Below are positions 40,806 through 54,613 of a stretch of 64,000 nt of DNA, piece by piece. The DNA is taken from contig NZ_BDCR01000004.1 of NCBI RefSeq assembly GCF_001618385.1, positions 372,001 to 436,000 on the forward strand, in the 5' to 3' direction. The position numbers and the translations under genes were made by a program. The notes beneath the pieces are model-generated. The model searched no databases. It was not told the origin of the DNA and worked only from the letters and a program-made list of their open reading frames with translations. Every line of letters begins with the position of its first letter. Position 1 is the stretch's first letter. Source of the DNA: Paludibacter jiangxiensis. GTDB lineage: Bacteria > Bacteroidota > Bacteroidia > Bacteroidales > Paludibacteraceae.

Positions 40806-42116
40806 TTAACGACGGCCACCTCCGCTACTACTGCTACGCGAACCACCACCTGAATAACTTCCACTACTTCCTGAAGAGTAGCTTGATCTGCTGCCCGACG
40901 AGTAACTGGACGAACTACTGTTATAGTCAGAAGATGAAGATCTTCTGCTACTATTGTCGTAGTTGCTACTATTGCTGGATGAGCTTCTTGATTCGCTATT
41001 GTTGCGGGTAGAATAGCCAGATGATGGAACTGATACAGTTTCAGAGCTGCGACGACTGCCTGCTCCACTGGAATAATTTCCTCGTGAATTATAAGAAGGA
41101 GCACTGGTGACACTGCTACCCATTGAACGACTGCCTCCGCTAACAGTAGCACTGGTTGTGCCAGCAGCACGGCTACCGCTGTTTACATTATAGCCTCTAT
41201 TTGAAAGGAAATTATTCCAAAATGTAGTGTTCTGATTGCTGCCTCTTGTACCGATTGTATTGCTACGTGTGCCCGAGGTTGAAGAACTGAATGAACTACG
41301 ACTGCTTCTTGATCCTGTAGTAGAAGAAGCAAAGCGCGAGCCGGTCATTGAACTGCGAGCAGTTCCTGTTGCAGCCTGTCTTCTGCTGTCAGCAGTATAG
41401 TTATATGGAACAGAGCGTCCCCAATTGCCACCATACCAACCTCCATATCCGTAGGAGTATGGATAACCGCCCCATCCATAATAAGGATATCCCCAGCTGT
41501 AATATCCACCGTAATATGGATAATCCCAACCAAAGCCAGAACTCCAACCGAAGCTCCAATCCCAGTAAGGATCATACCAGCTGGAATACCACGGAGAATA
41601 CCAGTTATTCCAGTATCCACTATAACCCATATACTCGCCGTATTGATAATGGCGATATCCGCCGTAAGGCCATCCCCAGCCAAAATTGTCATAAACATTT
41701 ACAGTCCAGTTTACGTTATCGAGAGGATATGCACCGTTTTCGTCACCATCGTTGATGATAATAGTACCATCAGGATTATGGAAACGTTTGATCCTGTTTG
41801 CATATTCGCCATTAGCAATTCCGACTTTAGAGCTGTCTATAACCGGTTCCTGGTTATCTCCGGAATAATAAACGGTATCGCCATTCATATTCCTTACCAC
41901 AACAATATCTTTTCCTCCCACTCTTGTCGATTCAATTTTGTATTGATCGTTGTTTGGAGCAGAAGATTCAGCATTTTGAACTACAGGTTTTGCCTGTTGT
42001 GTCTGCAATGGTTTGTCTTTTCCGGGTTTATAATAAAGGTCATCGTAAAGATCTTGCCCGAACACAAATGCCGGAAGCGACATCAGGGCGGCTACGAAAA
42101 ACACTTTTGCTTTCAT
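40806..42116 (-). CDS. Secreted low-complexity protein rich in Trp/Tyr/Gly and Ser/Arg
   Basis: A 436-residue protein with a signal peptide (1-20, FVFGQ). Residues 21-130 are ordinary sequence including GGKDIVVVRNMNGDTVYYSGD. Residues about 135-240 are extremely rich in Trp, Tyr and Gly (for example GYSGYWNNWYSPWYSSWYDP), and residues about 250-436 are almost entirely Ser, Arg, Gly, Thr and Asn, ending SSSGGGRR. No cysteine or catalytic motif. This layout suggests an aggregating or matrix-forming envelope protein, perhaps associated with the outer membrane through the aromatic region. Function unknown. Cotranscription with the FadL-like gene downstream is likely. Confidence 0.7.
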   Translation of the reverse strand: MKAKVFFVAALMSLPAFVFGQDLYDDLYYKPGKDKPLQTQQAKPVVQNAESSAPNNDQYKIESTRVGGKDIVVVRNMNGDTVYYSGDNQEPVIDSSKVGIANGEYANRIKRFHNPDGTIIINDGDENGAYPLDNVNWTVNVYDNFGWGWPYGGYRHYQYGEYMGYSGYWNNWYSPWYSSWYDPYWDWSFGWSSGFGWDYPYYGGYYSWGYPYYGWGGYPYSYGYGGWYGGNWGRSVPYNYTADSRRQAATGTARSSMTGSRFASSTTGSRSSRSSFSSSTSGTRSNTIGTRGSNQNTTFWNNFLSNRGYNVNSGSRAAGTTSATVSGGSRSMGSSVTSAPSYNSRGNYSSGAGSRRSSETVSVPSSGYSTRNNSESRSSSSNSSNYDNSSRRSSSSDYNSSSSSYSSGSRSSYSSGSSGSYSGGGSRSSSSGGGRR

Positions 42117-45227: not shown

Positions 45228-47489
45228 TTATCTCCTTAATGTCAGATATCCCGTGTAATGTTCAACGGCGTTGGTCTTTGTGTCAGTCGTTTCGAGGATA
45301 TAGTAATAAGTTCCGTCGGGTAGATTCTTCCCGAGGAAGTTGCCGGTACCTTTACCATCCCACTCATTTTTATAATCATTGCTCTTGTAAACCAAATCAC
45401 CATTCCGATTGAATACCTCAAATTTCAGACGCAAGTGAGGCGCATGTATAATTTCAAATGTGTCATTAAATGTGTCATTATTTGGAGAGAATCCATCAGG
45501 TATAATAAGAGCTGCTACAGGAACATTCGTTATTGTCGGTTTAGGAGCAACGAATCCGTCTTCTGTGTTGTGCGGGTCGTTCGACAAAACATCCGTAATG
45601 TTACCCATTAACTTAGAACTACCTTCCGTTGTAGCCTGGTTATAAACCTTTCCTGAATACCAGTGTGAATCTATTCGTAAAGAAATAACGATGGAATCGG
45701 TTTGTTGCGGAGCTAAGCGACATTTGGATGCCAGTAATGTTGCAATATCACTATTCCCGTCATACAAACTGTTGGCAACAAGAGCTCCGCTGGCAACAAC
45801 ACTCTGCACTTCGAAGGTTTCACCGTGGGTGAATACTTTTGTCAGATCATCATTTACCTGAATGTTGGCTAGTGTGTCTTTTGATGAAACAGGCATTGTA
45901 TTTTTCAGCGTAATGGTGTACTTCCAGCTAAACTTCGTTTTTCCGTCAAATTTAGGTGTAGTAGCCGTTTTGGTTACACTCAACACCTGTTGATTTGAAT
46001 CTGCCGTATAAATAATGGTTGGCTTATCTTCCGTAAGCGATTTTGGATCGGAGTAGTCAGTTACAAGTTTTCCAAAAATATCTATTGCAGCTACCTGGGC
46101 CAAATTTACCACGTAACCGGTATCCACATCAGCCTTTGTAATTTTATAATCGGCTGTAAAAGTGGTATAATCGGTTGCACCCGGAGCTAAACTATCTATA
46201 GGTGTTCCCACAACCGCAACTTTAGGATCCACTATATGAATATTGGTGAGCTTGTATTTTCCGGTATTTGCAATGGTGAACGTATAATGAACCTGGTCAC
46301 CTGCATCGCCCTCAATACCATTATGGTTTGCATCTACTACTTTTGCCTGTTTCAGCAATGCAATCGCACCTTTGTTGTTATTACTGGCTTTCGTATAATT
46401 AGCTTCCCTCTGGGTTGAAAGTGTAGCAAGGCTATCAAACTTAAGACTTAATACTTCCGATCCCGGAACGCTACCCACCAAGCTGGATTCCTGATAATTA
46501 AATTGCCAGTCATCCGTACTTGGATAGTACCCCGTGTTGTTTGGCGCTTTTCCGTAACGCGTTATGTAATTGGCCGCTGACGAAAATCCCAGCATGTTTG
46601 TTTTCGAGTTATGTTGAAGGCTGATAGTGGCCGAAGCCGTTGTGTTGCCGTAAATATTCCACGTGCGGGCAATACCTGCAAGGTCCGATTCGTCTGGTGC
46701 TGAAGCCGCATACGAATTGACATTGACGTGCATCGTATTGGCCGTGGCCGGTGACACGGTGGCAGGAGTATAGTCGTTCACCGCATATCCTACAGGGAAT
46801 ATAAACGCGCCTGTATAATTTTCCTTTACCAAGTGACCCGATGATGCCGTAACCACATATTTATCGGCATCATAGCCCAAAAGATTGGCAATGCTGGTAA
46901 GCACCATATCCCGGGTGTTCAAAAAGAGATGACCGGTGGTAAACGTGATGGAGGTCCCCACACGGGCATCGGTGTTGAGCAGTAGTACCCCTTTGGGGTT
47001 GTTGATCTCCATAGACGTGATGGTGTTTTGCAAACTGTTGGCAGGATTGCCGCCGTTACCGCCATCCAGTATCTGTTGCGTGATGGTTCCGGTATTGGGG
47101 TTGGGTTGCTTGAACACGAAAGTTCCGGTACCAGTACCATGATTTTGTATAGTCCAGGCAGTATTGGAACCATATATGCGCGCACCGGGGAATATCTTCA
47201 GCGTATCGCCGTAAAAGAGAAGTTTTTCGCCATCTTCGATATACACGCGGGCATTGGGCCCCAACACCACGTTGCCATACCATTGCGTGGTGCTGCCAGC
47301 GGCCACAGTATAGGTATCGTCAATATAAATAGATCCGGTAGTTTGGGCGTGAGAAGTAAAAATGCAAAAGAACAATAGTAAAAACAATATAATCACCTTA
47401 CGCTTCTTTTGATTAAAGTAATCCTTCAGGTAACAAAAAGAAATATGAAGGATTCTGTGATCTTGGTTGATGTATAAGCAGTTTATCAT
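45228..47489 (-). CDS. Surface protein with type IX secretion type B sorting domain
   Basis: A 753-residue secreted protein. The N-terminus has a long charged region and a hydrophobic signal core (about residues 31-46, ending TSHAQ). Residues 50-390 are beta-rich (GSIYIDDTYTVAAGSTTQWYGN). Residues about 395-640 hold two DUF11-like/Ig-like modules (VHYTFTIANTGKYKLTNIHI and FSWKYTITLKNTMPVSSKD). The last 90 residues are a gliding-motility-type (type B) sorting domain: IIPDGFSPNNDTFNDTFEI, LKFEVFNRNGDLVYKS, WDGKGTGN, LPDGTYYYILE and a final GYLTLRR. Such domains direct export through the type IX system, usually with a SprF/PorP partner that is not in this window. Last gene of the leftward surface locus. 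Confidence 0.85.
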   Translation of the reverse strand: MINCLYINQDHRILHISFCYLKDYFNQKKRKVIILFLLLFFCIFTSHAQTTGSIYIDDTYTVAAGSTTQWYGNVVLGPNARVYIEDGEKLLFYGDTLKIFPGARIYGSNTAWTIQNHGTGTGTFVFKQPNPNTGTITQQILDGGNGGNPANSLQNTITSMEINNPKGVLLLNTDARVGTSITFTTGHLFLNTRDMVLTSIANLLGYDADKYVVTASSGHLVKENYTGAFIFPVGYAVNDYTPATVSPATANTMHVNVNSYAASAPDESDLAGIARTWNIYGNTTASATISLQHNSKTNMLGFSSAANYITRYGKAPNNTGYYPSTDDWQFNYQESSLVGSVPGSEVLSLKFDSLATLSTQREANYTKASNNNKGAIALLKQAKVVDANHNGIEGDAGDQVHYTFTIANTGKYKLTNIHIVDPKVAVVGTPIDSLAPGATDYTTFTADYKITKADVDTGYVVNLAQVAAIDIFGKLVTDYSDPKSLTEDKPTIIYTADSNQQVLSVTKTATTPKFDGKTKFSWKYTITLKNTMPVSSKDTLANIQVNDDLTKVFTHGETFEVQSVVASGALVANSLYDGNSDIATLLASKCRLAPQQTDSIVISLRIDSHWYSGKVYNQATTEGSSKLMGNITDVLSNDPHNTEDGFVAPKPTITNVPVAALIIPDGFSPNNDTFNDTFEIIHAPHLRLKFEVFNRNGDLVYKSNDYKNEWDGKGTGNFLGKNLPDGTYYYILETTDTKTNAVEHYTGYLTLRR

Positions 47490-47503
47490 TATCCTGTTAG
47501 GGC

Positions 47504-48265
47504 TTATCTAAAAACAAAATTACTAACAGTCTGAGTGGACCAATATCCACCTGTAGCCCCTGTAAAACCAACCCAGCCCAACGGAGAACCTAATACACTT
47601 GGTATATCCACAGAAAAGTATTTAGTTGTTGTATTTGTAGTTGATTGTTCATCCATTTTTACAGTTAACGTTTTCGCACTGTAATTGTAAGTAATAGTAA
47701 AGATTATGGGATTACCACTAGCCAAATTAACAGGACTTACCGGATCATAAGGAGTGGTTATCACTCCATTGGTAAGAAATTTAATTCCATTAGTTCCATA
47801 TATGTTGATAGCAATAGCAATGCTTGGTGAAATACCTTGATAGCCTAAATTATTAGCATGAAGGCCAAGAGATGTGGTCGTCGCATTTTGTATTACAAAA
47901 CAGATTCCATCAGCGGGATTATAATTATAGGTCTTACAACCGCCCCAACCATACCAGCTTGTACAGATATACGAAAAATCAGATGGCGTATAAGTAAATG
48001 TCGCAGTAAAATTTCTTCTCATTCCCATTTTAAGCTTGTAAAAAGCAGAGCTTGCTTGAGAAAGCTCACTCGTTGTTAATGTCAGTACGCGATTGACAAT
48101 AGAAGGTGCTACGTTTCCATTGTTATTAATCTGCCATCCTGAACTTCCATTCATGTAAATATAATGCGGTTGGTTCAGCGCCCAGAATTTCTGTATCGGA
48201 GGTTGAGCATTCGATAGCAGACAAACACCCAACAATAAAACAACTAATTTCGTTCTCATGGTCAT
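47504..48265 (-). CDS. Secreted L-type lectin-like domain protein
   Basis: A 253-residue protein with a signal peptide (about 20 residues). The mature protein is one legume (L-type) lectin-like beta-sandwich: a SGWQINNNGN start, FTATFTYTPSD, ADGICFVIQN (the sugar-site Asp region), SIAIAINIYGTNG, then LTVKMDEQ and GWVGFTGATGGYWSTQTVSNFVF at the end, which is the classical last strand. Some metal-binding residues of plant lectins are not obvious, so carbohydrate binding is not certain. It lies 4 nt downstream of the large fibre-like gene and 14 nt upstream of the type IX-sorted protein gene, so all three are one transcript. Confidence 0.78.
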   Translation of the reverse strand: MTMRTKLVVLLLGVCLLSNAQPPIQKFWALNQPHYIYMNGSSGWQINNNGNVAPSIVNRVLTLTTSELSQASSAFYKLKMGMRRNFTATFTYTPSDFSYICTSWYGWGGCKTYNYNPADGICFVIQNATTTSLGLHANNLGYQGISPSIAIAINIYGTNGIKFLTNGVITTPYDPVSPVNLASGNPIIFTITYNYSAKTLTVKMDEQSTTNTTTKYFSVDIPSVLGSPLGWVGFTGATGGYWSTQTVSNFVFR

Positions 48266-48269
48266 TTAA

Positions 48270-51200
48270 TTAGTTATAGTTATTGCCGATTGTCCACCAG
48301 AAAGTGCTACCGTCATAGAAGAAAGAAAGAATATCGAATGCGCCAGCTGATTGAGTAAGATAAGGGACTCCATTGCCTCCATTGATTACTTTATTAGTAG
48401 TTCCTGAGGCAAAGCCCAAAGTGCTATTCCCTGCATTTTTCACAATAATTACACCATACATTCCTGCTTTTACGTTAGATATTGTCAGTGTATTTGTTCC
48501 GGCATCTAAAGTCCATGAAGCAGAAGATCCTTTACTTAAGTCCCATGTTAGAGAATTCCCTGTAGACGAAGTCCCCTTAGCACCAGCAGTAGTAAAAGTT
48601 CCTTGTACCGGCGAAGTATAATTTGTTGCGTTTACGGTGCCATCCACGCCAAGAGTTGGAATGGAAGCGCCTGTATTACCCGGCTTGGTAAATGTAGGAT
48701 CACTTGCTGGGGTAGATGAAGTGCTCAATCCTACCCCTACATTGCCGTTGGCTAAAACTGTTACCCCACTGCCGGTAGTGCTGTTTGCCTGTATGGTAGC
48801 TACTTTTCCTGTAGCTGAAGATGAATAAGTTGCGCTATTTACCACATTGAGTAATCCGTTTGTGGAAGTATTGGTAGAAGCGGAAACAGACAATCCTGTA
48901 CCACTTGTCAAACTATTTCCTGCTATTGAAAAGATATTTCCGGTAGTTCCTGTACTATTCCATGTAATCGGGTTCGTATTCATTGTAACAGTACGTGTAT
49001 TATTCAGAGCACCATTGGAATTGTATATGTTTGGCAAATCCGACGGACTTGCCCAACTTAAATTTCCCGAACCATCGTTTGCCAAAAGTTGCCCGCTTGC
49101 TGTGGCTTGAGCAGCAGGCATTACTAATGAATAGGTTGATGTTGAGGCTGCTGCCGATACTGTTGCCGTTCCCGAAGTAGAACCTGTAAGTGTAAGTGTT
49201 TTGCCCGATGCTAATACGGTATTGCCGACGGAAGTAATGGTTAGGGCATCTGATAATAATGAAGGCGAGACGGTGGTGCTAGTTGTAGCAGGAGTAATGG
49301 CAAATGCCATATAGGCATAATTACTTGCAGTAAAAGAATAACCCATATTGGTGGTTGTCCCTGTTGTTGCTTTTTTATATCCTATTGTACCATAGTAACT
49401 TGAGCCGGCTTGTAACGATGATAATATAGTTTGTCCATAAGAAGCTGTTGGAGTGCCTGATGTCCCAATGAAATCCATTACAATTTGCCCTGTAGATGAT
49501 GCCGGATACAAAAGAGCAGAACTATAGTAGCCCGTAGCAGCAGTTAATGGCGTATTTAATGTTTGTACATTGGATAAAACGAAAGCTGAAAAACCTATAC
49601 AAACGCCACTGTTATCGGGTTGGGTAACAACAATATCATGTGTGCCTGGAGTTGGAGCAGCTAAAGTCCACATTTCAATCCTCGTATTTCCTGAACCTAC
49701 GGTTTGGAATTTTGTTAGATTTTGACCAAACCATGTAACAGACGAAGCCGAACTATAATTATAGGAATAAACCAAAGCAACTACTAAAACTGTGTTATTC
49801 AGAGATGAGGAAATAGGATAACCCGTATAAGTGTAAGTTTGAGAATTACCGTTGCAATATTGATCTGTTATTAAATTATTTACACGAATGATACTTCCGG
49901 TGCTTGCTACACCTGTTTGAAAAATAATATTACCCGAACCACCTGCACCGGCTCCGTTACTTGCCTGAATGTACATGTCGGCACCGGGCGTGTTGCTTGC
50001 TCCTGCCTGTGCACCTCGAATAACGGTATTCGTAGGTGTGCCGCCTTCGCCTTTGCCAAAGATAGTGATGTCGGCATTAAATGTTTTATCACCTGAAAAA
50101 GTTTGTGCGGTTGTGGTTACTAATCCTCTTGCCGATGCTGATGCATCTGGAATATTGAATGTATGAACTGTTCCGCTTGATGTGATGTTAAAGTCTGTAC
50201 CTGTTGTTCCAGTTGCAAAAGTTTGAGTAAGCCCGGTTAACCCATTCAAAGAAGTAATTCCTCCACCTGCATTAGGGATATTCAATTCCCCTGTTGTGCT
50301 ATTGTATGTAGCAACTCCACCTGTACCGGTTGTTGTAAGCGAAATAGCTGATCGCGCTCTGGCATCAGTATAATACAAATTTGTACCCTCTGGAACGACT
50401 GATGTATTAAGCGTTTTCCAGGTTTTATCACCGCTCCAGTATTGGGATGTTGTCCCATTTGTTATTGCGGGTTCTTTGCTATTAAATTTATTCCAGTCTG
50501 CACTGTTCAAATATCCGTCAGTAGAAGTAGTTGCCTGGCTAATAGAAAATATTCCCGATGTATTATTATAGCTCAATGGAGCGGTTGCACTTAATGAGCC
50601 TAATGTGATGAACAATGGGGCTCCCGTTATTTTTGACCAACCAATATTGTTGATGGAAACATCAGTACGAGTATTAGGTGTGTTGTCTGCCACTGTAAAT
50701 TCCGAACCGAAATTCAAGGTGCTTCTTTGCGTCAGTCCTGTGCCATTGGATTGTACAGTCTGGTAATAGGCACTTGTCAGATATGTATTAGCATCAAAAC
50801 CCCATGTTGATGTTCCACTGTTATACTTTAAAAATCCATTTGAAAGAGTTGGTACAGATTTCCCCTGTATTCCTTTTACAACTGGTGAAGCTGCAGTACC
50901 CCCTAAATCGCCAGCTAATTGTACTCCACCCAATGTTGTTGAAGTTGCCGAGGACAGAGAAATAGTTTTGGCAGCACTTCCATCATAAGTTGTTCCTATG
51001 TTCAATTGAAGTCCGGCTCCAGCCGTCAAAGCATTAGGAGTTACGGCTGTTATTGTTGTTGATCCACCGAGTGCAACACTATTGCCATTAATCGTTATTG
51101 AAGAATTAGCTAAATCTACATTCGGTATTGACGATATATAGTTTGTTGTAGTTCCCGATTGCTTAACATATCCAGTTCCGCTTAGTGCGGGCTGCTTACC

Positions 51201-52577
51201 ATTAAAGGTATTCCACTCAGTATTACTAATCAACCCTCCTGTTACGCTAGAAGAAGTATTTGCCATCGGAATATTTAACGTAGTACTTCCACCCAATGAA
51301 ACTGGCGATGTACTCCATGATGGCGCCGCTCCTGTAGTCCCAGTAGATAATGAGATTGACCCTATGGAAGATATTGCTTGCTGCCGAACAACTCCTGTGC
51401 CATCTACACTTAACAGCTGGTCAGTAGTAGCACCCGTTTGTAAACCCTCTAGTCGCAAAGGATTAGAAGCCGATTTTACATGCAGCCTATTACTCGGATT
51501 TGTGGTATTTCCAATGCCGATTCCCACATTCCCAGTTTCTACTACTTTTACTAAATCGATCGCATCAGGATCCCAGTCTCCATTTGCACGAATCCTGAAT
51601 TCTGAGTTCGTTGAGGTTTTATCTGCATCAATAATAACATCCAATCCGGTACTACTTACTATATTACCAGTATTTCCCAAGAACAAAGAAGCTCCTGACC
51701 ATGCTGATATGCCTCCTGGAACAGTTGTAACCCCCAAGCCCAAAGCTTCATTTGTATCGAATGAAAACAATCTCATTTTTTCCTTTCCATTCGTGCCAAA
51801 AACCAAATCTTTTTGATCTGTAGTTCCCAAATAATTTTGTCCTGTTCCTGTACCCGGGTTCGTCAAGCTATTCCCGGTTAACAACCAGGCATACGTAGAC
51901 GGACTAACTGGAGACCAGTTTGTGCCGTTGTAACCAAGAACTTGCCCAGTTGTAGCAACTGTTGTAGTTCCCAGTGGAGAACCATTAATTTTTGTGACAG
52001 TCAATGCTGGATTTAAAGAAGAAGTTCCAGACGCAGTTCCAGTAACATCTCCGCTACCTGTCCAAATAATAGACTGATTAGTGGCTGTCAGCGTATTCCA
52101 TTTTGAACCATCCCAACGAAAAAGGGTTGAACTCCCTGGTGCAATAATAACACCTCCCACTGTAATTGACTGTACGGAAGTGTTGCTATTGGATACCTGA
52201 AAAATTCTACCCGGAGTATTGTCGGTTGGGGGGTCGAGAGAGAGGGTTCCTCCTGTACTTGTTTTTACGACAGCGCCAGAAAAAGCATCTACAGTGGACG
52301 TTCCAATCTTACCGCTTGATAGGTCTGTTATATCTGTCGATCCCAAAATAGTAGAGCCGGCATTGTGAAGTGTAGCTTTTGGCGCAGTAGTGCCGATGCC
52401 TACATTGCCTGTAGTGTTTTTGTTGTATATGTCGTTGCCCACTTGCTTCCATTTCGATTGATCGATATTTTGTATCGTGCCTTTATTGTCGATCACGCGC
52501 ACGGTTTGTGCACATACACCCAGTGTAAGCATCACCGCCAAAAGAAAAAATATCCGGATTTTAGAAGAAGAAAGCAT
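48270..52577 (-). CDS. Large secreted tail-fibre-like protein
   Basis: A 1435-residue protein when started at ATG 52577 (a TTG nine bases upstream is less likely), with a signal peptide ending LGVCAQ. After VRVIDNKGTI the N-terminal part contains GNVGIGTTAPKATLHNAGS and a GSKWNTLT module, as in phage tail-fibre-like proteins. The body is rich in Thr, Ser, Gly and Asn with irregular repeats: GGLISNTEWNTFNGKQPA and DGYLNSADWNKFNSKEPA, TTLGGVQLAGDLGGTAA, and YYTDARARSAI. The C-terminus ends in a small domain DILSFFYDGSTFWWTIGNNYN typical of fibre tips. No type IX sorting domain was seen. Probably a long trimeric or extended surface fibre; adhesion is an inference. Confidence 0.75.
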   Translation of the reverse strand: MLSSSKIRIFFLLAVMLTLGVCAQTVRVIDNKGTIQNIDQSKWKQVGNDIYNKNTTGNVGIGTTAPKATLHNAGSTILGSTDITDLSSGKIGTSTVDAFSGAVVKTSTGGTLSLDPPTDNTPGRIFQVSNSNTSVQSITVGGVIIAPGSSTLFRWDGSKWNTLTATNQSIIWTGSGDVTGTASGTSSLNPALTVTKINGSPLGTTTVATTGQVLGYNGTNWSPVSPSTYAWLLTGNSLTNPGTGTGQNYLGTTDQKDLVFGTNGKEKMRLFSFDTNEALGLGVTTVPGGISAWSGASLFLGNTGNIVSSTGLDVIIDADKTSTNSEFRIRANGDWDPDAIDLVKVVETGNVGIGIGNTTNPSNRLHVKSASNPLRLEGLQTGATTDQLLSVDGTGVVRQQAISSIGSISLSTGTTGAAPSWSTSPVSLGGSTTLNIPMANTSSSVTGGLISNTEWNTFNGKQPALSGTGYVKQSGTTTNYISSIPNVDLANSSITINGNSVALGGSTTITAVTPNALTAGAGLQLNIGTTYDGSAAKTISLSSATSTTLGGVQLAGDLGGTAASPVVKGIQGKSVPTLSNGFLKYNSGTSTWGFDANTYLTSAYYQTVQSNGTGLTQRSTLNFGSEFTVADNTPNTRTDVSINNIGWSKITGAPLFITLGSLSATAPLSYNNTSGIFSISQATTSTDGYLNSADWNKFNSKEPAITNGTTSQYWSGDKTWKTLNTSVVPEGTNLYYTDARARSAISLTTTGTGGVATYNSTTGELNIPNAGGGITSLNGLTGLTQTFATGTTGTDFNITSSGTVHTFNIPDASASARGLVTTTAQTFSGDKTFNADITIFGKGEGGTPTNTVIRGAQAGASNTPGADMYIQASNGAGAGGSGNIIFQTGVASTGSIIRVNNLITDQYCNGNSQTYTYTGYPISSSLNNTVLVVALVYSYNYSSASSVTWFGQNLTKFQTVGSGNTRIEMWTLAAPTPGTHDIVVTQPDNSGVCIGFSAFVLSNVQTLNTPLTAATGYYSSALLYPASSTGQIVMDFIGTSGTPTASYGQTILSSLQAGSSYYGTIGYKKATTGTTTNMGYSFTASNYAYMAFAITPATTSTTVSPSLLSDALTITSVGNTVLASGKTLTLTGSTSGTATVSAAASTSTYSLVMPAAQATASGQLLANDGSGNLSWASPSDLPNIYNSNGALNNTRTVTMNTNPITWNSTGTTGNIFSIAGNSLTSGTGLSVSASTNTSTNGLLNVVNSATYSSSATGKVATIQANSTTGSGVTVLANGNVGVGLSTSSTPASDPTFTKPGNTGASIPTLGVDGTVNATNYTSPVQGTFTTAGAKGTSSTGNSLTWDLSKGSSASWTLDAGTNTLTISNVKAGMYGVIIVKNAGNSTLGFASGTTNKVINGGNGVPYLTQSAGAFDILSFFYDGSTFWWTIGNNYN

Positions 52578-52620
52578 GTTGACCAATACCTTATTTTTTG
52601 ATTGTATATAAACTAAAACG

Positions 52621-52662
52621 GAAAAAGCAATTAAGAGGCAAGGTAGATGCCTTGCCTCTTAA
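52621..52662 (-). terminator. Strong terminator between the 247-residue and 1435-residue genes
   Basis: A perfect 13-bp repeat (52631-52643 with 52650-52662), 6-nt loop, and on the minus strand TTGCTTTTTCC. It lies within the leftward surface locus, directly after the 247-residue gene, and should lower expression of the downstream genes. Confidence 0.85.
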
Positions 52663-52679
52663 GAAATATCTGAAAAATA

Positions 52680-53423
52680 TTATTTAACCCACTGGATTTC
52701 TATTCTATCACCGACATACAATGCATAGTCTTCTCCAGCATTAACACTTGAATTCTTAACAATAACATCATAAGGTGCAGATGCACCAAGTGTATAGTCA
52801 ACTCCAGCCAACAATTTAACACCATTTCTATATACAGAAATTTTCTCAATACTTGCTGGAATTGATGCATCACCCGAGTAAGTAAAGTTTTTTGAAGCAT
52901 CACTAACTTTATCGTTATATTTTCCACCTTTAACAAGATCAGTAAACAAAAGTTTTTGAACAGCACCGGTAGCTTCGTCACGAACTAATAATGTCCAACC
53001 TGCTGTTGAAGCTGAGGGATCGGTTGATGTGTGTGTTGGAATACCTGCTGTGGCCGCACTTCCCGTAGCAAAACTAATTCCATCCAAACCAAAAACCTTG
53101 CCATCTGTAGTGATATAAGTATTATCAGTCAATGTACCACCTAACTGCCATGTGGTAGTAACCCCAGTTTTATCGTCAGATGTATTAGTAATGGCTGTGA
53201 TACCATTTTGAACTTGTAAGTACTTGATAGTTCCTTTATTGTCAATCAGGCGAATAGTTCCATTAGCTTTTACAGCTGTTCCTGCCACATCACTATTCTT
53301 AACAACTCCGAGGTTAGCAACAGCTGTGGTTGTGTTCTGAGCGTTTGCCGTAAAAGCAAAAGTTCCAATGGCAAGCGTAAGGCCGGCCACTTTCATCCAA
53401 TTTTTAGTAGAATTTGTTTTCAT
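52680..53423 (-). CDS. Secreted fibre-like structural protein, 247 residues
   Basis: A signal peptide (about 28 residues, FTANAQ) is followed by a Thr/Ala/Gly-rich protein. GTIRLIDNKGTIKYLQ near residues 55-70 matches the N-terminal motif of the neighbouring 1435-residue protein. LLVRDEATGAVQKLLFTDLV (about 145-164) is a shared module of this locus, and the C-terminal domain with ISVYRNGVKLLAGVDYTLG and GDRIEIQWVK resembles phage tail tip and fibre proteins. No lipobox or sorting domain. Its own strong terminator suggests it is the most abundant product of the locus, perhaps a repeating subunit. Function is inferred only from sequence style and context. Confidence 0.68.
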   Translation of the reverse strand: MKTNSTKNWMKVAGLTLAIGTFAFTANAQNTTTAVANLGVVKNSDVAGTAVKANGTIRLIDNKGTIKYLQVQNGITAITNTSDDKTGVTTTWQLGGTLTDNTYITTDGKVFGLDGISFATGSAATAGIPTHTSTDPSASTAGWTLLVRDEATGAVQKLLFTDLVKGGKYNDKVSDASKNFTYSGDASIPASIEKISVYRNGVKLLAGVDYTLGASAPYDVIVKNSSVNAGEDYALYVGDRIEIQWVK

Positions 53424-53481
53424 CTCTTCGATTTTTGAAATGTGAATAAATTAGAAAATTAAATATAGATTATTGATCCTT

Positions 53482-54447
53482 TTATTTCCATTGATAAATT
53501 TTGATTTCATCTCCCGCAAAACATCCGCTATCAAATACAGCATCCGGTTTTAAAATAATGCTGGATGCTCCTGCTGTAGCGCTGAAGTCTATTTCGGCAC
53601 CATTTCGGTACACCTGTATTTTATCGGCAGAGCTTATGGGATAAGGAGTCGGAAAATTTAGTTGTCCATCTGTTGCCTTATAAACCGCTACTTTCCGGCC
53701 GCTTGCCATGCTTGATGCTGATACAGATTTGACAACACCAGTAGCAGGGTCGGCCACCAGAATATTATCGGCATCGCTGCCCGTTTGCAGGCCGGTAATG
53801 GATAATGTATTGGTAGCATCCGTATTGATAGTGGTAGGACGGGTCAGGTTCCCGCCAAATGAGATGGTATGCGTGGAGGGGTCATAACTCAGCCCGTTGG
53901 TGGCATTCAGGTTTTGAATAAGTTCGTTGAAAGAAATTTTGCGCAATACTCCCGAAGGATCGGAAACAATCAGGCTGTCTGATTTTGATCCCGGTTGAAG
54001 ACCCGATAAGGAAAAAGTATTAACCGATGAAGCGGTAATTGTTGTGGGCTTGATAAGAGAACCACCGAGCTGTACGGTGTTAGCACCGCTTTTCGATAGT
54101 CCGTTTTCGGCATTAGTAAGCGAAGAGGTGGAAGAAATGTCAATTATTTTAATCCATTGCGTTCCATCGTTATAATAAATACCTTCGGAAACATATGGCA
54201 AATTAGTCCCATTCGTGGTTTTATTATACACTAACATCCCCTTTACATGCGATGTTAAAGGAGCTGGCGATGTCGTTAGATTCAAGTTGACGCGGGGTAA
54301 CAACATACCCTTTTTCCCATTAGCAGCATCCCCCAATTCTAAATAGGCATTGGCATCAGAAGGACCTGTTGTGCCACCGATTTTAGTTTGAGAGTGAACA
54401 TGGGAAAAAATAACGCAGATGAATATAGCTGCAATTACTTTTCTCAC
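53482..54447 (-). CDS. Secreted fibre-like protein, 321 residues
   Basis: GTG start at 54447 directly before the signal peptide (about 19 residues, HVHSQ). Residues 20-100 (DANAYLELGDAANGKKGMLLPRV; EGIYYNDGTQWIKI) form a module common in Bacteroidetes fibre-like proteins. Two tandem repeats follow, GLQPGSKSDSLIVSDPSGVLR and GLQTGSDADNILVADPATGVV, then a C-terminal domain with KIQVYRNGAEI and GDEIKIYQWK that corresponds to the end of the 247-residue protein. First gene of the leftward surface locus; 58 nt from the next gene. Confidence 0.68.
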   Translation of the reverse strand: MRKVIAAIFICVIFSHVHSQTKIGGTTGPSDANAYLELGDAANGKKGMLLPRVNLNLTTSPAPLTSHVKGMLVYNKTTNGTNLPYVSEGIYYNDGTQWIKIIDISSTSSLTNAENGLSKSGANTVQLGGSLIKPTTITASSVNTFSLSGLQPGSKSDSLIVSDPSGVLRKISFNELIQNLNATNGLSYDPSTHTISFGGNLTRPTTINTDATNTLSITGLQTGSDADNILVADPATGVVKSVSASSMASGRKVAVYKATDGQLNFPTPYPISSADKIQVYRNGAEIDFSATAGASSIILKPDAVFDSGCFAGDEIKIYQWK

Positions 54448-54483
54448 AGATAATTATAGTTTTCTCTTTAGATATTCTTAATA

Positions 54484-54535
54484 ATCCGTCTATTAACTTT
54501 GTTCATTTAATCTACAGTTAGTTAAATAGACGGAT
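54484..54535 (-). repeat. Long inverted repeat in the surface-locus leader
   Basis: ATCCGTCTATT is repeated perfectly in inverse orientation and extended by TAAC/GTTA with one bulged T (54484-54497 with 54521-54535), spacing 23 nt. It lies 36-88 nt upstream of the first surface gene and downstream of the predicted promoter, so it would be a hairpin in the mRNA or a dyad operator on DNA. No T-tract follows on the minus strand. Confidence 0.6.
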
Positions 54536-54605
54536 CAATGGTCATAATCAACACTTCTCACTGCATTGCCAAAGAAGATTGATTTTTTGACATATTTTAG
54601 TCTTG

Positions 54606-54613
54606 CAAATGTA
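54606..54613 (-). promoter_or_regulatory. -7 element of the surface locus
   Basis: TACATTTG on the minus strand matches TAnnTTTG exactly; 19 nt upstream the sequence is ATG rather than TTG. Predicted leader about 150 nt. Confidence 0.55.

Follow-up and report, generated by a model that had tools for sequence, protein, structure and literature searches.

The stretch analysed here, referred to as the window, comprises 64,000 nucleotides of the Paludibacter jiangxiensis genome (contig NZ_BDCR01000004.1, positions 372,001 to 436,000), and five consecutive genes within it, P1 to P5, form a real, conserved and rarely carried unit, which most probably encodes an adhesive fibre linked to the type IX secretion system (T9SS). 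A probability of about 0.6 is given to the reading in which the locus codes for a modular surface appendage, whereby P1, P2 and P3 form a thin fibre, accompanied by the lectin P4 and the surface protein P5; from the genes we infer the fibre itself, its surface location and the export of P1-P4. The first-pass annotation of the window had described five minus-strand genes at 45228-54447, all encoding signal-peptide proteins, and both the open reading frames and their N termini have been verified. The latter resemble Sec signal peptides and are followed by Gln (HSQ, NAQ, CAQ, NAQ and HAQ in P1 to P5), as expected under the Bacteroidetes Q-rule (PMC5837995).

The order of the genes, on whose conservation the first-pass annotation had staked its proposal, is kept in relatives far beyond the genus. 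P1 lies directly upstream of P2 in all 17 P2-bearing genomes found, which belong to the Bacteroidales and to a Flavobacterium-like family, and a P3-type gene follows P2 in 15 of 16 assessable loci (L170 is the locus without it; L166 is cut by a contig end and left out of the count). A gene with a T9SS signal adjoins the cassette in 11 of 14 assessable loci, three further loci being cut off. In nine of these a gene with a type B C-terminal sorting domain (CTD) follows, although in L164 the TIGR04131 match falls just under the cut-off; in the other two, a small type A CTD protein and a protein of 212-220 residues precede P1. These latter pairs (L163:6821-8000 and L171:6566-7837), the second member of which belongs to no known family, may perhaps replace P5. 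In the genus relatives G003 and G001 the locus stands between the same flanks as in the window; the P4 slot holds a different protein of 457 residues in G003, and the lectin is absent from G001. The closest complete operon, P1-P2-P3-P5-PorP/SprF-PorE-like, is found at an unrelated genomic site in a member of another genus of the family (G008, locus L043). Since the order is kept where the flanking genes differ, it reflects more than chance. The conserved core is P1-P2-P3, with P4 as an optional component and P5 as a common, not universal, one. The cassette is nevertheless rarely carried: a P2 profile search gave loci in 13 of 299 genomes of the Flavobacterium-like family (f31), and in 1 of 395 and 1 of 247 genomes in two broader samples. 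The P. jiangxiensis genome (G000; 3.66 Mb in four contigs) carries a single copy.

P1 and P2 represent two related families defined by a common C-terminal domain, termed here domain X, and P2 is tied to P3 by a short N-terminal tag. By hhalign, P2 and the C-terminal half of P1 are homologues (probability 98%, E 7e-15), and domain X alone, compared between the two with larger alignments, gives a probability of 96% and an E-value of 4.5e-9. Among the other open reading frames of the searched loci, domain X occurs in none besides P1, P2 and their duplicates or fragments. The tag, V(R)VIDNKGTI, is present in 17 of 17 P2 proteins and in nearly all P3 proteins, in none of the 17 P1 proteins, and in two of about 1005 other open reading frames; in P2 it lies some 20-50 residues past the signal cleavage site, and profile comparison of the P2 and P3 tags gives 89%, E 2e-6. 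P1 thus has X, P2 the tag plus X, and P3 the tag plus tip, and the simplest reading of this distribution is an order of base, connector or shaft, and tip. P1 has one invariant Cys in all 17 orthologues (residue 309 here), 13-14 residues from the C-terminal end; mature P2 has none. Single-chain AlphaFold2 models were built from alignments of three sequences for P2 and six for P1, and residues 251-320 of P1 reach confidence values (pLDDT) of mostly about 75-86. Foldseek searches with this domain return phage tail and portal-tail chains (9efk, 8es4, 8i4m and 9ilp; probability 0.9-1.0 over 73-85 columns), as well as viral models that include a tail-collar fibre protein. A sequence search of the PDB with P1 and P3 gave nothing useful.

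P3 behaves like a fibre protein under diversification, with modules shuffled between close relatives. The alignable parts of the window P3 and its G003 counterpart are confined to residues 1-471 and 1297-1438, and with the G001 protein alignment is limited to the N-terminus and one segment that has moved (80% identity). Elsewhere the P3 slot ends in Collar and Gp10_C domains (G008), S74 (G1046 and G1118, the latter with additional Gly-rich and CBM_5_12 modules) or a YadA head (G003 and G1148), and P3-like genes at L044 and L045 also end in S74 (the genomes with such genes being G008 and G030). In the window P3, the Pfam scan finds no S74 or collar tip domain, and YadA_anchor is found neither in it nor in the scanned relatives. 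One short segment of P3 has a match in a phage record of 636 kb.

The first-pass annotation had likened all three proteins to phage tail fibres. For P3 the likeness finds support in relatives that carry phage and trimeric-fibre modules; it does not extend to P1 and P2, for which no relative was found in PHROG, phage records or viral contigs. A domesticated phage tail-fibre module or a prophage remnant would account for the S74, Collar and Gp10_C domains, for the similarity of domain X to phage portal-tail and tail domains, and for the stretch shared with the 636-kb record. Yet we consider such an origin very improbable, as Sec signal peptides are present on all genes, a phage gene flanks no locus read, no phage kin of P1 and P2 was found, and the order is conserved together with T9SS partners. 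The signal peptides and the lack of phage neighbours and of phage relatives of P1 and P2 largely refute a prophage remnant in particular, and a phage origin would concern at most individual tip modules. A PHROG search with P1-P5 gave no convincing family match, and the same holds for P1, P2 and P3 against Pfam and NCBIfam. As had been reported at first pass, phage genes are likewise missing from the flanks of the locus; the flanking genes are of housekeeping type.

P5 supplies the link to the T9SS. It was initially read as a protein with a type B sorting domain and DUF11-like modules, and this assignment is borne out by matches above cut-off to CHU_C (77.8 bits, cut-off 27, E 6.9e-22) and TIGR04131 (52.2 bits, cut-off 35), together with DUF7507 and a weak DUF11 match. 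It is also, as stated then, the only one of the five with a recognised signal for outer-membrane export in Pfam and NCBIfam scans. The genome itself codes for porP-porK-porL-porM-porN and for SprA (SprA_N), and contains eight hits to PorP/SprF and ten to the type B CTD, two of each being located in the repeated ends of contig C4. At the two ends of this contig (L129; C4:1,110,597 onward), the type B adhesin-PorP hits match each other and are inverted, and large adhesin gene repeats therefore probably break the assembly there.

The CTD of P5 is 57-58% identical to those of two cargos of its own genome, on contigs C3 and C4, with PorP and PorE-like genes after each; identity to the other CTDs does not exceed 39%. 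The carrier beside P5 in G008 is 58% identical to the C1, C3 and C4 carriers of the P. jiangxiensis genome and 21-27% identical to its remaining carriers. The C1 carrier (C1:937,898-938,953) has no cargo and stands beside a PorE-like OmpA-domain protein; the pair extends over C1:937,898-941,209 (L130:9898-13209), with no type B cargo upstream. In Flavobacterium johnsoniae, orphan type B substrates make use of a common orphan shuttle, cross-talk is predictable from CTD similarity, and a PorE-linked class is statically anchored (PMC12618676); PorP-like proteins are bound by type B proteins (PMC9143113). Because of the similarity of both CTDs and carriers, the cargo-less C1 pair and the F. johnsoniae precedent, P5 is predicted to use the C1 carrier or its paralogues in trans, and would be fixed at the surface rather than moved. 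Two genes of other loci were considered as PorP/SprF and rejected: a gene for 303 residues in the P4 slot of L142, taken as a hidden PorP/SprF, has no Pfam or NCBIfam match, and a gene for 288 residues in L044, which by eye gave the impression of a PorP, has a weak FISUMP match as its sole hit. The fetched loci of relatives, including those of G214 and G1170 inspected for SprC/SprD neighbours, contain no sprB operon. Near sprA, these two genomes have an orphan SprF-like gene (L174:389-1387; G1170:C7:33473-34426), whose long-tailed product carries a CxC motif at its C terminus; the gene is perhaps the counterpart of the Fjoh_1677 shuttle and a candidate carrier for the flavobacterial P5.

P5 may alternatively be the adhesin of an ordinary type B locus, in which P1-P4 are separate secreted accessories without a joint structure. 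Many type B adhesin genes stand next to PorP/SprF in the genomes examined, the function of SprB in F. johnsoniae is supported by its companion genes sprC and sprD (PMC5879114), and the N-terminal module of P1 is present in many unrelated secreted Bacteroidota proteins. This explanation deserves serious attention, but we hold it unlikely, since about 15 other type B-PorP loci, examined as controls in two Flavobacteriaceae-like genomes (G1170 and G242), have no P1 or P2 neighbour, the triad P1-P2-P3 also occurs without P5, and the common tag and domain X link its members to one another. The control loci and the triads without P5 thus indicate that the conserved unit is the triad and not the adhesin.

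The fourth gene was first described as encoding an L-type lectin-like protein, and by its sequence matches P4 is an L-type (legume-type) lectin: PF00139 scores 42.5 bits, above its gathering score of 26.3, PF18483 gives 64.6 bits (E 1.5e-17), under its gathering score of 78.3, and the PDB match is the legume lectin 7elv (E 3e-10).

A different location would be conceivable for P1-P3, whose signal peptides are not accompanied by any known signal for outer-membrane export, and three loci are without a T9SS partner. The proteins might then assemble in the periplasm or on the inner face of the outer membrane, for example as an envelope scaffold, with P5 as the sole exported member. However, the fast exchange of P3 modules, the exchangeable tips, the lectin and CBM_5_12 suit outward-facing adhesins, and the periplasm would be an unusual place for fibre proteins of 1400-1800 residues that bear S74 chaperones; this arrangement is therefore improbable.

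For the T9SS-linked appendage, a sequence of steps can be proposed. P1-P5 reach the periplasm via Sec, as their signal peptides show, and P5 would use its type B CTD to cross the outer membrane via the T9SS. At the surface it would be held by a PorP/SprF carrier acting in trans, for which the C1 gene is the best candidate, and the PorE-like OmpA-domain protein beside that gene may tie the carrier to peptidoglycan. P1, P2 and P3 would assemble in that order, P1 as the base, P2 as a connector or repeating shaft and P3 as a long tip; the weakest step is the supposed docking between a subunit's tag and domain X of its predecessor. P4 may add sugar binding. The most likely route for P1-P4, held tentatively and at well below even odds, is that they pass the T9SS translocon while attached to P5. 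The function would be adhesion to polysaccharide, particles or other cells. In a more specific form, the triad would be an undescribed Bacteroidota appendage, in which P2 forms a head-to-tail polymer with the VIDNKGT tag in the neighbour's domain X, starting on P1, capped by P3 as a phage-like tip and exported by hitch-hiking on a substrate of the T9SS; as a whole this form is rather doubtful. No paper describing the cassette was found in the open-access literature, which leaves subscription papers and preprints outside the search.

Several points weigh against the proposed appendage. A PorP carrier for P5 is not found in cis: directly downstream, in place of the PorP/SprF gene that usually, though not always, follows a type B substrate, come genes for an amino-acid kinase and OTCase, both on the opposite strand. 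The corresponding carrier locus in G001 (L135) has a cargo of its own, and sharing of the carrier must therefore be allowed. The literature searched gave no precedent for CTD-less proteins riding through the T9SS. L143, L167 and L170 carry the triad or the pair within sufficient sequence and have no adjacent T9SS-signal gene, so that either P5 is unlinked there or the partner is not in every case P5. The tag, of about 10-17 residues, is short, and an ordinary homologous strand could account for it. The models are poor outside domain X (mean pLDDT 41 for P2 and 48 for P1), and the Foldseek E-values against the PDB do not pass 0.001; the resemblance of domain X to phage tail or connector domains is therefore a hint. 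The system is known here from genes and such single-chain models, and the trimer, the polymer and the structure are all predicted.

Comparison with known systems shows likenesses on several sides. Type B proteins with PorP/SprF and PorE, for which PorE-PorP-PG1035 of Porphyromonas gingivalis (PMC9143113) and Fjoh_3952/3951/3950 of F. johnsoniae (PMC12618676) serve as references, share with this locus the P5 CTD clade, in which PorE-like genes come after the carriers, and the G008 arrangement directly after P1-P2-P3-P5. They differ in that the window has no carrier and PorE in cis, and that its type B gene comes after P1-P2-P3 and a lectin, none of which the literature searched describes. The sprC-sprD-sprB-sprF operon of F. 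johnsoniae likewise places secreted accessory proteins upstream of a type B surface protein, yet its SprF is in cis and has C-tail cysteines that link to GldK (PMC12635249), whereas the predicted carrier clade here ends in ...SPRYY, without a C-terminal Cys. Phage tail fibres resemble the long repetitive P3 with its exchangeable tips and its relatives bearing S74, Collar and Gp10_C, but the present proteins are Sec-exported, have no virion genes beside them and carry the IDNKGT tag instead of a virion-attachment domain. The YadA-head repeats in P3 of G003 and G1148 recall YadA-type trimeric autotransporters; their anchor barrel was not found here, and passage through the outer membrane must differ. 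Type V (FimA/Mfa) fimbriae are also multi-gene secreted appendages of Bacteroidales, for which head-to-tail assembly is imaginable, but P1-P5 show no fimbrillin domain in Pfam and NCBIfam, and their signal peptides, which end in Gln, show no lipobox and are not of the lipoprotein type.

If the proposal is true, two unnamed protein families and a defined gene unit would be added to the poorly charted surface structures of Bacteroidota. The locus would also bear on the question whether a protein that lacks a T9SS signal can pass the outer membrane by binding to one that has it, extend the orphan-substrate/orphan-carrier prediction outside F. johnsoniae, and illustrate an exchange of fibre tips between surface proteins of bacteria and phage-like modules.

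The locus also has candidate expression signals. The gaps measure 58 nucleotides between P1 and P2, 93 between P2 and P3, and 4 and 14 between P3, P4 and P5, the last two having been correctly reported at first pass. The P2-P3 gap contains a terminator-like hairpin (z -4.4), which is conserved in the two genus relatives (z -4.9 and -5.5), shows paired changes within the genus and is replaced by a different hairpin at the same place in G008; none is present in the P1-P2 gaps. The five genes are therefore probably not equally expressed, and P1-P2 would be made in excess over P3-P5. Upstream of P1, TACATTTG is a candidate match to TAnnTTTG, which we take to be the Bacteroidota-type -7 consensus. 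Together, the hairpin and this element suggest a single promoter with reduced read-through into P3-P5. A further hairpin, with a stem of about 15 bp, lies in the P1 leader (54481-54537, minus strand; region z -2.5), and its inner arms are partly conserved in G001 and G003; an Rfam search over the locus, this hairpin included, gave no match.

Table 1. Position of the genes, domains and candidate expression signals of the P1-P5 locus in the window.
Feature	Position	Strand	Extent	Description or basis
P1	53482..54447	(-)	321 aa, GTG start	secreted protein; widespread Bacteroidota N-terminal module, 'LGGTL' repeats, C-terminal domain X
P2	52680..53423	(-)	247 aa	secreted, family-defining, rare; N-terminal tag and domain X
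P3	48270..52586	(-)	1438 aa from TTG, 1435 aa from ATG three codons on	fibre/tip-like; N-terminal tag, shuffled C-terminal modules
P4	47504..48265	(-)	253 aa	L-type (legume-like) lectin; optional slot
P5	45228..47489	(-)	753 aa	T9SS type B substrate; own N-terminal domain, DUF7507/DUF11-like modules, CHU_C CTD
Domain X of P1	53485..53697	(-)	residues 251-321, beta-rich, ends VYRNG..CFAGDEIKIYQWK	modelled pLDDT; homology to P2 C-terminus
Domain X of P2	52683..52931	(-)	residues about 165-247	homology to P1 C-terminus
N-terminal tag of P2	53214..53255	(-)	IRLIDNKGTIKYLQ, residues 57-70	motif in 17/17 P2
N-terminal tag of P3	52473..52502	(-)	VRVIDNKGTI	two residues past predicted signal cleavage
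Type B CTD of P5	45231..45506	(-)	residues 662-753	CHU_C and TIGR04131
Hairpin between P2 and P3	52631..52662	(-)	13-bp stem, then T-rich tract	intrinsic-terminator/attenuator-like
TACATTTG	54606..54613	(-)	candidate -7 element, about 160 nt upstream of P1	sequence; identical in two genus relatives

The sizes initially given for the first three genes (321, 247 and 1435 residues) are upheld, the longer P3 of Table 1 applying if the TTG start is taken; the real start of P5 is probably downstream of the called ATG. One flank of the locus codes for PrmA, OTCase and an amino-acid kinase, and the other for a histidine phosphatase-family protein (PF00300), DUF1801, DUF3795 and UvrB. With a GC content of 0.35-0.46, the locus shows no trace of recent acquisition. 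Among named relatives, those nearest to P1 come from a Bacteroidota metagenome-assembled genome (90%) and from Paludibacter sp. SA7853_bin1 (84%).

Some cassettes of other genomes are interrupted or degenerate. An IS982-family transposase gene lies between P2 and P3 in G1046 (L163:10045-10851), and in two flavobacterial genomes P3 has an in-frame stop (L167) or P2 an apparent frameshift (L171:9093-10054). In Pinibacter, Edaphocola and G077 (L062, L070 and L144), the N-terminal domain of P5 directly follows genes with the P1-type N-terminal module, the CTD being of type A and not type B in one of them; these loci may represent a wider and looser pairing of fibre and anchor. In related loci without P2 (L044, L045, L050 and L066), a type B CTD gene stands next to fibre-like genes, some of which end in S74; PorP/SprF is also present at L045, L050 and L066. 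Elsewhere in the window, positions 40806-42116 of the minus strand code for a secreted low-complexity protein of 436 residues, rich in Tyr, Gly and Ser and without a Pfam match, which is conserved in the genus.

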